Source of the DNA: Apostichopus japonicus
Lineage: Eukaryota > Echinodermata > Holothuroidea > Aspidochirotida > Stichopodidae
Direction: 5' to 3'
NCBI RefSeq assembly: GCF_037975245.1
Contig: NC_092577.1
Span: 14,718,013-14,782,012 of the forward strand
DNA length: 64,000 bases
In this document: positions 17,868 through 23,920 of the stretch, in pieces
Layout: each line of letters begins with the position of its first letter
How positions within the stretch are numbered: the first letter of the stretch is position 1
Notes under the pieces: model-generated
What the model was told of the DNA's origin: nothing
Seen by the model: only the letters and a program-made list of their open reading frames with translations
Databases searched by the model: none
Position numbers and translations under genes: made by a program

Positions 17868-18159
17868 GCGGTGAGGGCAACAACAGAACGGAATGAAAGT
17901 TGTTTGTGTTTTGCAATCTTGGGGGCACAAGGGGCACAGCACTTAATTGGGGGTATAATGTTTATTTGTTAATGCCATCATTTGGGAGGGGTATCAGGAG
18001 AAAAGGGTCCTGGATGCAATATGTTGCTATATTTCGCAACTTGAAGTAACTTTTTGTTCAAGAATTTTCGGGCTTAGTCTGTCCGATATATATGTTTTGA
18101 GGCAGATCAATATTTTGTTTGAGTATTTTTATTTTAACACTAAAAATCGCATTTCGGGG

Positions 18160-18235
18160 GCACCTGGGGAACACGATTGTTCTTGGGAGGGCACGTGCTC
18201 CCTTCGCCCCCCCCCAGACACCACTGTAGCCAAAA
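18160..18235 (-). mobile_element. G-rich DNA-transposon terminus (in duplication copy 1)
   Basis: Read on the minus strand, cagtggtgtctggggggggg begins a G-rich edge resembling hAT-like terminal repeats. The same edge is at 21166-21242 in copy 2, where the C-run is one base longer. Confidence 0.4.
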
Positions 18236-18433
18236 GAAAAATATATAATTATATGTGTGTGTATGTGTGTGTGTAAGTGTATATATGTGTGTATGTGTGG
18301 ATGTATGCATTTAGTATGTGTGTATGGGCGGGTGTGTGTGTGTTTGTTGTAGGTTACGTTATACTCGTATACTCGTATACTTCACAGTGAATGATTATGA
18401 TGTAACATGACCATATCTAGACAGGTCGTATCT

Positions 18434-18681
18434 TCATCTCAGTGCTTTGATGCTGTGATAATCGTTTCCAGGCAGTTGACGCCAGAATATACTTGTATCT
18501 TTATCTACGGCATAATAGTCACCATTAAGATTAGAAGCTGATGCGCATTGTCCGTACCACCAGGCACCACCATAAAATTGAGCACATTTATCTTCATCAC
18601 GTGAAGTGGTCTTGTCGAAGGTCTTGAAGGTATGGGTCACCTGGTTTTTCAGAGCAATACCAGCCTCGTCAGGAAATCCTT
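18434..18681 (-). CDS. FReD terminal exon, duplicate copy B
   Basis: Identical in deduced protein to 21440-21687. The acceptor ttcacag precedes the exon, which is entered in phase 1 and reads [14 protein letters not shown], then [18 protein letters not shown] and ASNLNGDYY, ending HSIKALR-stop. These are the calcium-site/polymerisation-pocket and C-terminal motifs of fibrinogen-related domains. It sits downstream of its own copy of the FReD-middle exon, so it could serve as an alternative 3' end or be an unexpressed duplicate. It shares the apparent frameshift near the stop described for copy A. Confidence 0.75.
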
Positions 18682-19214
18682 CTGTGAATTAAGCAAAAAG
18701 TAACCTTATGCTATATTGGCCCCAAATATGCCAGAGTTTTCAAACAAATATATAAATCAATATTTTTTTATTCACACCCTGGAGGCTGGAAGGAATTTAC
18801 CTCACTGGGACATACAGTCATCTAGTGTATTTATTTAGAATATTCGAGAAAAATTTAGAGAGTAAACACTTCCAGGAATGCAGGAAAATATTAAATAGCA
18901 AGATTTAAGTGGTTATGAATGGGAGGCGCTATTACAGTATAGCGAATTCGTAAACGTAAGACTTGTTGCATGTACAAAACTAAGTCCGTTGGAATCAAGA
19001 ATCGTAAAGTTGCAAACTGTGTAAACTTAGTTTAGTTAATGATGTAGGCCTACAGAGAAATGAACTTATGCTGTGTTAATTGTCTTGTTACTAATTAAAT
19101 GCTAACTGATGACTCATTCAAAGAACTTAAGAAAAGGTATATGTTGATTTAGACTAACATGTGACCATGCAGGGAAAGCTCTAATGGTTTTATTAAAATA
19201 TCGTTCCTCAATTA

Positions 19215-19996
19215 CCTACATATGTTGTTCGGCCGGTTCTCTGTGTAACCTACATATGTTGTTCGGCCAGTTCTCTGTGTAGCCTATGTATGTGGTTTGG
19301 CCAGTTCTCTGTCTAACCTACATATGTGGATCGGCCAGTTCTCTGTCTAACCTACATATGTGGTTCGACCAGTTCTCTGTGAAGCCTATGTATGTGGTTC
19401 GGCCAGTTCTCTGTGTAGTCTTTGTATGTGGTTCGGCCAGTTCTCTGTCTAACCTATGTATGTGGTTCGGCCAGTTCTCTGTGTAGCCTATGTATGTGGT
19501 TCGGCCAGTTCTCTGTGTAACCTATGTATGGGGTTCGGCCAGTTCTCTGTTTAGCCTATGTATGTGGTTCGGCCAGTTCTCTGTGTAACCTATGTATGTG
19601 GTTCGGCCAGTACTCTGTGTAGCCTATGTATGTGGTTCGGCCAGTTCTCTATGTAGCCTATGTATGTGGTTCGGCCAGTTCTCTGTGTAGCCTATGTATG
19701 TGGTTCGGCCAGTTATCTGTCTAACCTACATATGTGGTTCGACCAGTTCTCTGTGTAGCCTACATATGTGGTTCGGCCAGTACTCTGTGTAACCTACATA
19801 TGTGGTTCGGCCAGTTCTCTGTGTAGTCTTTGTATGTGGATCGGCCAGTTCTCTGTCTAACCTACATATGTGGTTCGACCAGTTCTCTGTGAAGCCTATG
19901 TATGTGGTTCGGCCAGTTCTCTGTGTAGCCTATGTATGTGGTTCGGCCAGTTCTCTGTGTAACCTACCTATGTGGTTCGGCCAGTTTTCTGTGTAT
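19215..19996. repeat. 34-bp minisatellite (copy 1), about 23 units
   Basis: Unit gttcggccagttctctgtgt + agcctatgtatgtg, with variants acctacatatg, tactctg and ggttcgacc. It lies in the intron between the two duplicated FReD exons. Repeat-derived frames ([18 protein letters not shown]...) are not genes. Confidence 0.95.
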
Positions 19997-20047
19997 TTTG
20001 CAATATAACAAAGATATTGCTTTAAACATAACAGATACTACACTAAC

Positions 20048-20859: not shown

Positions 20860-20862
20860 AAT

Positions 20863-20897
<35 letters not shown>

Positions 20898-20920
20898 CGT
20901 ATATATATATATATATATAA
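20860..20920. repeat. TA microsatellite at duplication junction
   Basis: Two TA runs separated by atcg, then ataatggatgg, exactly where copy 1 meets copy 2. The equivalent position at the end of copy 2 is a longer TA run followed by the GGAT/GGAC array. Confidence 0.9.
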
Positions 20921-21439
20921 TGGATGGGGGCACAAGGGGCACAGCACTTAATTGGGGGTATAATGTTTATTTGTTAATGCCATCATTTGGGAGGGGTATC
21001 AGGAGAAAAGGGTCCTGGATGCAATATGTTGCTATATTTCGCAACTTGAAGTAACTTTTTGTTCAAGAATTTTCGGGCTTAGTCTGTCCGATATATATGT
21101 TTTGAGGCAGATAAATATTTTGTTTGAGTATTTTTATTTTAACACTAAAAATCGCATTTCGGGGGCACCTGGGGAACACGATTGTTCTTGGGAGGGCACG
21201 TGCTCCCTTCGCCCCCCCCCCAGACACCACTGTAGCCAAAAGAAAAATATATAATTATATGTGTGTGTATGTGTGTGTGTAAGTGTATATATGTGTGTAT
21301 GTGTGGATGTATGCATTTAGTATGTGTGTATGGGCGGGTGTGTGTGTGTTTGTTGTAGGTTACGTTATACTCGTATACTCGTATACTTCACAGTGAATGA
21401 TTATGATGTAACATGACCATATCTAGACAGGTCGTATCT

Positions 21440-21687
21440 TCATCTCAGTGCTTTGATGCTGTGATAATCGTTTCCAGGCAGTTGACGCCAGAATATACTT
21501 GTATCTTTATCTACGGCATAATAGTCACCATTAAGATTAGAAGCTGATGCGCATTGTCCGTACCACCAGGCACCACCATAAAATTGAGCACATTTATCTT
21601 CATCACGTGAAGTGGTCTTGTCGAAGGTCTTGAAGGTATGGGTCACCTGGTTTTTCAGAGCAATACCAGCCTCGTCAGGAAATCCTT
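21440..21687 (-). CDS. FReD terminal exon, copy A (exon 6)
   Basis: Entered in phase 1 after ttcacag. Encodes the end of the FReD, with [11 protein letters not shown] (calcium-site region), [16 protein letters not shown] and [15 protein letters not shown]. The frame then stops as ALR-TGA. In the next frame the same bases read [12 protein letters not shown], which is the family-typical C-terminus, so one base appears missing after AAAGC. No AATAAA is obvious close downstream. Confidence 0.85.
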
Positions 21688-23864
21688 CTGTGAATTAAGC
21701 AAAAAGTAACCTTATGCTATATTGGCCCCAAATATGCCAGAGTTTTCAAACAAATATATAAATCAATATTTTTTTATTCACACCCTGGAGGCTGGAAGGA
21801 ATTTACCTCACTGGGACATACAGTCATCTAGTGTATTTATTTAGAATATTCGAGAAAAATTTAGAGAGTAAACACTTCCAGGAATGCAGGAAAATATTAA
21901 ATAGCAAGATTTAAGTGGTTATGAATGGGAGGCGCTATTACAGTATAGCGAATTCGTAAACGTAAGACTTGTTGCATGTACAAAACTAAGTCCGTTGGAA
22001 TCAAGAATCGTAAAGTTGCAAACTGTGTAAACTTAGTTTAGTTAATGATGTAGGCCTACAGAGAAATGAACTTATGCTGTGTTAATTGTCTTGTTACTAA
22101 TTAAATGCTAACTGATGACTCATTCAAAGAACTTAAGAAAAGGTATATGTTGATTTAGACTAACATGTGACCATGCAGGGAAAGCTCTAATGGTTATATT
22201 AAAATATCGTTCCTCAATTACCTACATATGTTGTTCGGCCGGTTCTCTGTGTAACCTACATATGTTGTTCGGCCAGTTCTCTGTGTAGCCTATGTATGTG
22301 GTTTGGCCAGTTCTCTGTCTAACCTACATATGTGGATCGGCCAGTTCTCTGTCTAACCTACATATGTGGTTCGACCAGTTCTCTGTGAAGCCTATGTATG
22401 TGGTTCGGCCAGTTCTCTGTGTAGTCTTTGTATGTGGTTCGGCCAGTTCTCTGTCTAACCTATGTATGTGGTTCGGCCAGTTCTCTGTGTAGCCTATGTA
22501 TGTGGTTCGGCCAGTTCTCTGTGTAACCTATGTATGGGGTTCGGCCAGTTCTCTGTTTAGCCTATGTATGTGGTTCGGTCAGTTCTCTGTGTAACCTATG
22601 TATGTGGTTCGGCCAGTTCTCTGTGTAGCCTATGTATGTGGTTCGGCCAGTTCTCTGTGTAACCTATGTATGGGGTTCGGCCAGTTCTCTGTTTAGCCTA
22701 TGTATGTGGTTCGGCCAGTTATCTGTCTAACCTACATATGTGGTTCGACCAGTTCTCAGTGTAGCCTACATATGTGGTTCGGCCAGTACTCTGTGTAACC
22801 TACATATGTGGTTCGGCCAGTTCTCTGTGTAGTCTTTGTATGTGGATCGGCCAGTTCTCTGTCTAACCTACATATGTGGTTCGACCAGTTCTCTGTGAAG
22901 CCTATGTATGTGGTTCGGCCAGTTCTCTGTGTAGCCTATGTATGTGGTTCGGCCAGTTCTCTGTGTAACCTACCTATGTGGTTCGGCCAGTTTTCTGTGT
23001 ATTTTGCAATATAACAAAGATATTGCTTTAAACATAACAGATACTACACTAACCGTCTTCCCAAGCTGTTCCACTGTAATTTCCCAACTCAGACAACCGA
23101 TAAGTGTCACTTTCATCGTTTATTCGGAACATGTTATACTTTGCGTAGTATGGAGAGCCACTAACGTTCACCAGATCGATCCGAAGTTGGTAGTTGCCTT
23201 GGTTGGTCAGATGATACAGTTTATCATTGCCCAACCAAAACTCATGGTCGAGCTGACCAAAGCCTTCTTTATAGCTGTTCCAGTTACGATAGAAGTCAAC
23301 ATAGCCATCAACACGACGTTGAAAAACCTGGTCAATAAATAAGAATTAAAACAATAGATAATTATTTTCATTAGAAGACTTTAGAAGAGTACGTGAAGAC
23401 CTATTACATGACTTAGCGTGTTTAAGAGAAGTAAGAATGAAAGTTAAGAAGAAACTATTTGATAATAAAATATTATTCATACGTGTGCAATTCTGACAGT
23501 TTAATTCACTTAATAGTTAACTATATATATACTTTAGTAGACAAGATGTCATAAATGTTGATAAACCTAACCAAGATTTGACTGAGCTCAACTGAAAAAT
23601 TAGGACAGAACATATGTCATGCACATCATTATTATTAAACGCTAAATTAACAAACTAGTGATAATCCAGAAGTGGACTGTGTTCTGTTCTCTTAACCGTA
23701 CTTCAATGTGCTTGACACACCCCTGCACCATGTCTTTGCAGTATATGATTCAGCCGCACTGGGGGTTCCATGGTCTGCTTGAAATAAATTATTAATTGAA
23801 TACTTTATAGAGGATGTTCGTACTCTTACATCCAAGGACTACAGCAGTGATTAGGTAATTTCAA

Positions 23865-23920
<56 letters not shown>

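Follow-up and report, generated by a model that had tools for sequence, protein, structure and literature searches.

The window, by which we mean the whole stretch of 64000 bases that was analysed, contains on its minus strand a fibrinogen-related (FReD) gene that encodes an EGF-like and a fibrinogen-C domain. Exon 4, bordered by TTTCAG and GTAAGT and in phase 0 at both ends, is followed on the gene strand by two successive pairs of exons 5 and 6, referred to here as copy B (proximal to exon 4) and copy A (distal) (Table 1). AG acceptors precede exons 5 and 6 in both copies, exon 5 ends at a GTTAGT donor, and the phases run from 0 to 1 in exon 5 and from 1 to the stop in exon 6. The copies do not encode different sequences, as exons 5 and 6 are identical in both, and neither do A and B differ in the 181 bases that precede exon 5. 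The initial annotation had assigned these exon coordinates, splice sites and phases and had proposed that the protein is identical and that either 3' half could be joined to exon 4. String identity and the splice motifs bear this out, and the duplicated exons are splice-compatible with exon 4, as in alternative-last-exon or mutually exclusive arrangements; the in-frame joins 4-5B-6B, 4-5A-6A, and 4-5B-6A all give one same protein.

The product of exons 4 to 6 matches Fibrinogen_C (PF00147) with 189 bits (E 1.4e-55, cut-off 22) over profile positions 3-212 of 221, and EGF_3 with 29.3 bits, barely above the cut-off of 28.5, while TILa and DUF6751 stay below their cut-offs (all Pfam). Its best PDB relatives are ficolins. 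The introns, this EGF-FReD protein and the retrotransposon genes of the window suggest that the host is an animal. An acidic stretch in the alignment with ficolin-1, which we take to be the calcium site, is not conserved in the FReD product (exon 6, 21440-21687), and its calcium binding may be altered. A tblastn search of the window (E up to 10) found no FReD exons beyond exon 4 and the two exon pairs. Among prokaryotic contigs, where little was to be expected, 50 pattern matches to exon 5 were obtained and none was confirmed as a relative.

Table 1. Features of the FReD locus in window coordinates.
Feature	Position	Strand	Remarks
Exon 4	25976..26284	-	EGF-like domain and start of fibrinogen-C domain; 309 nt, phase 0-0
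Exon 5, copy B	23054..23327	-	phase 0 to 1
Exon 6, copy B	21440..21687	-	terminal; ends at early stop
Exon 5, copy A	20048..20321	-	string-identical to copy B
Exon 6, copy A	18434..18681	-	string-identical to copy B, early stop included
Duplicated block, copy A	17920..20927	-	distal to exon 4; self-BLAST and MAFFT alignment
Duplicated block, copy B	20925..23926	-	proximal to exon 4; self-BLAST and MAFFT alignment
Junction of the copies	20925..20927		three shared bases, TGG; identity at the left edge from 20925, at the right edge up to 20927
GGATGGAC-type microsatellite	23919..24151		TRF; right edge of the duplication within its first units
34-bp VNTR, intron 5, copy A	19221..19995		22.8 units, TRF
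34-bp VNTR, intron 5, copy B	22220..23001		23.0 units, TRF
Divergent stretch	20503..20860		9 substitutions in 358 bp relative to copy B
AATAAA hexamers after exon 6A	plus-strand starts 17961, 18128	-	same pair as after exon 6B
AATAAA hexamers after exon 6B	20966..21138	-	plus-strand starts 20966, 21133

The two exon pairs lie in a block of about 3.0 kb that occurs twice in direct orientation when the window is compared with itself, the right edge of one copy being joined to the left edge of the other. Copies A and B align over 3009 columns at 99.07% identity, BLAST counting 20 mismatches and 6 gap openings. The tandem 3-kb repeat described earlier is therefore present, with identity confined to the exons rather than extending over the whole copies. 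No third copy appears among the self-comparison matches listed (the first 60, longer than 150 bp). Weak inverted arms (17921-17937 and 18195-18211, 76%), spanning about 290 bp, lie at the left end of the block and are perhaps the ends of a small element. A transposon carrying the whole block is unsupported, the arms being weak and limited to those ~290 bp, and a third copy being absent from the matches listed. Tandem copying at high identity is also seen elsewhere in the window, at 5361-5830 (138 bp x 3.4, 98%), 15334-15806 (259 bp x 1.8, 97%), and 47659-48150 (163 bp x 3.0, 98%; all TRF); given these three further cases, recent copying in tandem is no rarity in this stretch of DNA.

At the junction the joined ends share only three bases. 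Such an overlap fits microhomology-type joining without proving that mechanism, and it is weak evidence because at least three shared bases are expected in 6% of random breakpoint pairs of this region. A false join based on sequence overlap is unlikely with ends that share 3 bp only, and at the level of the sequence the junction has the appearance of genuine DNA joining, not of an overlap error. A (TA)n array (17799-17865, TRF) lies at a distance of 54 bases from the left edge. We considered a simple exchange between this array and the AT array at the right edge as the cause of the duplication and do not favor it, because the 54 bases separating the left array from the left edge are absent from 20801-21000 around the join, where they might have been lost later. 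Just outside the left edge, a tRNA-like sequence (17689-17763; ARAGORN tRNA-Cys, Rfam tRNA 43.5 bits) is followed by the (TA)n array, and the two together are perhaps a tRNA-derived SINE.

Divergence between the copies was counted from the alignment as 18 single-base changes over 17920-20860, excluding three indels (18206, 20515-20516, and 20648) and the differences past 20860 in the AT array. Seven of the 18 fall inside the 34-bp VNTR, whose two arrays are nearly equal in length. Outside it, the substitutions are unevenly spread, with 2 in 1801 bp before 20503 versus 9 in the 358 bp that follow (Fisher P 3.5e-6, for a split that was picked post hoc). In a scan, 3 of 20000 random placements put 9 of the 11 changes in a 358-bp window, a length that was likewise derived from the data. 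The exons show no differences in 522 bp, which at such low overall divergence is uninformative on selection. This patchiness can be accommodated by joining between homologues, by partial gene conversion, or by two alleles assembled in series.

The duplicated 3' halves also share a defect. Both end after KALR, while in a different frame these bases give STEMKIRPV before a stop, again in both copies, and in frame the Fibrinogen_C domain is not complete to its C-terminal strand. Read in frame, exons 5 and 6 match Pfam positions 45-212 of 221 with 145 bits; with the other-frame tail appended behind an X, the score rises to 155.8 bits and the match extends to position 220. The true tail thus adds 10.8 bits, versus 2.5-2.8 bits for shuffled tails (n=3; totals of 147.5, 147.6, and 147.8 bits, matches ending at positions 215-216). 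Once the true tail is appended, 37 of the 60 PDB matches listed (60 of 68 in all) extend to query residue 178-180 of 180, and EMKVRP is aligned to EMKIRP in four PDB alignments, all of ficolin-1. These comparisons point to a frameshift, common to both halves, by which the conserved end of the domain is lost, an EMKIRPV-type tail now lying in another frame. However, some PDB matches of the in-frame product of exons 4 to 6 already reach residue 273-275 of 278, so the loss would concern the last few residues only. The frameshift may predate the duplication, may have spread by conversion, or may be a consensus error in both copies. The description of the locus as having two complete 3' halves was accordingly too strong, since both carry this frameshift before the conserved C-terminal strand.

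A shared early stop raises the question of whether the 3' half was degenerate from the outset, belonging to a FReD gene in decay, with neutral duplication of its altered end coming afterwards. The position of the frameshift in both copies and the gain in score from the true as opposed to the shuffled tails argue for such decay, whereas the remainder of the domain is well preserved (189 bits), exons 4 to 6 are open apart from this stop, the protein may tolerate a shorter tail, and a consensus error in both copies would produce the same picture. We regard decay as possible though somewhat doubtful; it overlaps with the explanation that we prefer and does not compete with it for probability.

That preferred explanation, which we consider probable, is a recent and genuine tandem duplication of about 3 kb, produced by non-homologous or microhomology-type joining beside the microsatellite, after which copy B is used and copy A is inert. 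Such joining would have duplicated exons 5 and 6 together with the VNTR of the intron and the 3' flank. From a promoter upstream of exon 4, transcripts would most likely be spliced 4-5B-6B and end after copy B, and copy A would be left as a promoterless, redundant 3' half that is reached only through read-through and exon skipping and that would then yield the same protein. The direct repeat, the edge-to-edge join with its three shared bases, the lack of any N, the identical exons, and the hexamers after both copies of exon 6 all agree with a duplication present in the animal itself, as do the other high-identity tandem repeats of the window. Against it stands the patchy divergence (2/1801 versus 9/358 bp), which would also be expected of two assembled alleles.

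The foremost competitor is accordingly an assembly artefact, in which two alleles of a single 3' half were set head to tail by the assembler (a false, or heterotype, duplication). Two alleles may present this same picture, an identity of 99.07% with some stretches rich and others poor in SNPs, and passages of PMC9516828 describe partial false gains that include a class of "false exon gain". The marks of false duplication given there are half depth, a gap between the copies, discordant read pairs, and single-copy k-mers, the gap being among the main ones. In our case no N occurs among the 64000 bases of the window, hence no assembly gap between the copies, and the joined ends share only 3 bp; a wrongly filled gap would nevertheless be invisible, and the same passages note that wrong gap filling sometimes joins such false copies. 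They also mention true allele-specific tandem duplication. Half depth alone would not be decisive, because a real duplication carried on one chromosome gives half depth too. The initial annotation had named an uncollapsed haplotype as its alternative; this is made less likely by the absence of a gap and by the short overlap, yet it fits the patchy divergence, and we rate it as unlikely, if still to be reckoned with. Between a genuine duplication and an artefact, we judge, by weighing rather than by computation, that the genuine duplication is clearly the better supported.

If the duplication is real, the question is which 3' half is used. By the general rules of splicing and 3' end formation, 4-5B-6B is the expected default, and use of copy A would need skipping and read-through. 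A pair of AATAAA hexamers follows exon 6 in each copy. Because some of the 12 AATAAA motifs on the gene strand in 17001-24000 fall within introns and exon 5, these hexamers are weak signals and the use of particular polyA sites is a guess. The default choice is probably copy B, and copy A is probably an orphan, which we judge redundant because the in-frame joins yield the same protein. Upstream of exon 4 on the gene strand lies an array of a 91-bp unit (x 40.5, 93% matches, TRF; 27271-30951), perhaps within an intron.

Alternative use of both halves, as a route to diversification, had been suggested for this locus, and the gene might conceivably employ the two as a working pair of alternative last exons at the start of such a process. 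In both halves the splice sites are intact, the phases compatible, and polyA-type hexamers present, but their coding sequences are identical and their products would be alike, the early stop is common to both, and with the 181 bases upstream of exon 5 identical, mainly distance remains to distinguish them, which favors B. With identical exons, upstream bases, and early stops and with hexamers in each half, the suggestion of diversification finds no support, and we consider a working pair quite improbable. With exon 5 the same in A and B, ordinary RNA-seq reads over the suggested junctions (25976 to 23327 versus 20321) are unable to show which copy they come from. Comparably improbable is a recognition gene at the first step of an alternative-last-exon array, in which partial gene conversion would preserve the identity of the part that carries the exons as one end diverges, the last strand of the domain being already absent from either half.

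A genuine duplication at this locus would be an ordinary one, a further example of the tandem exon duplication that is a well-known phenomenon; excerpts of PMC9741552 and PMC9013439 describe it together with mutually exclusive splicing. As in those systems, head-to-tail exons lie within one gene and their splice sites are kept. Unlike them, the block here includes the terminal exon and the stop, giving an alternative-last-exon layout, and the exons are undiverged. A second parallel is offered by the sea urchin Sp185/333 immune genes, which, in the sections of PMC3091723 consulted, occur in tandem segments bounded by microsatellites. In both cases, segments of an immune-type animal gene lie in tandem at near-complete identity and have microsatellites at their edges or close by, but the Sp185/333 segments of 4.5 kb carry whole genes, whereas here the 3' part of a gene is copied, with a microsatellite at the right edge only: that edge lies inside the GGATGGAC-type array, and 54 bases separate the left edge from the (TA)n array. 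The resemblance to heterotype false duplication as outlined in the passages of PMC9516828 lies in adjacent, near-identical partial gene copies, and the difference in the missing gap between them.

Snail FREPs are also fibrinogen-domain recognition proteins, and their diversity is ascribed, in the portion of a review available (PMC12074976), to gene conversion, point mutation, and splicing. Unlike FREPs, which are described in part of PMC7588048 as having one or two IgSF domains, the protein studied here has an EGF-like domain in exon 4. Excerpts of PMC13208588 deal with sea cucumber FReD peptides and have no bearing on a tandem 3' half. Among the literature excerpts retrieved, there is no apparent report of a tandemly copied FReD 3' half, the search being too thin to claim absence.

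If real, the locus represents a recognition-type gene that was partly duplicated very recently, with a junction placed at base level, and serves as an example both of how tandem exon copies originate and of how such copies may be mistaken for diversification. Annotators should be warned that the two 3' halves may be called as isoforms or as an extra gene despite encoding the same protein.

Two further features of the window lie away from the FReD gene. An open frame at 10842-14039 (1066 aa) contains endonuclease/exonuclease/phosphatase and reverse transcriptase domains, and its product is probably a non-LTR retrotransposon protein. Another frame, at 63298-63999 and running to the end of the window, has a sub-threshold match to CxC4 (25 bits, cut-off 26.9), a domain associated with KDZ transposases.
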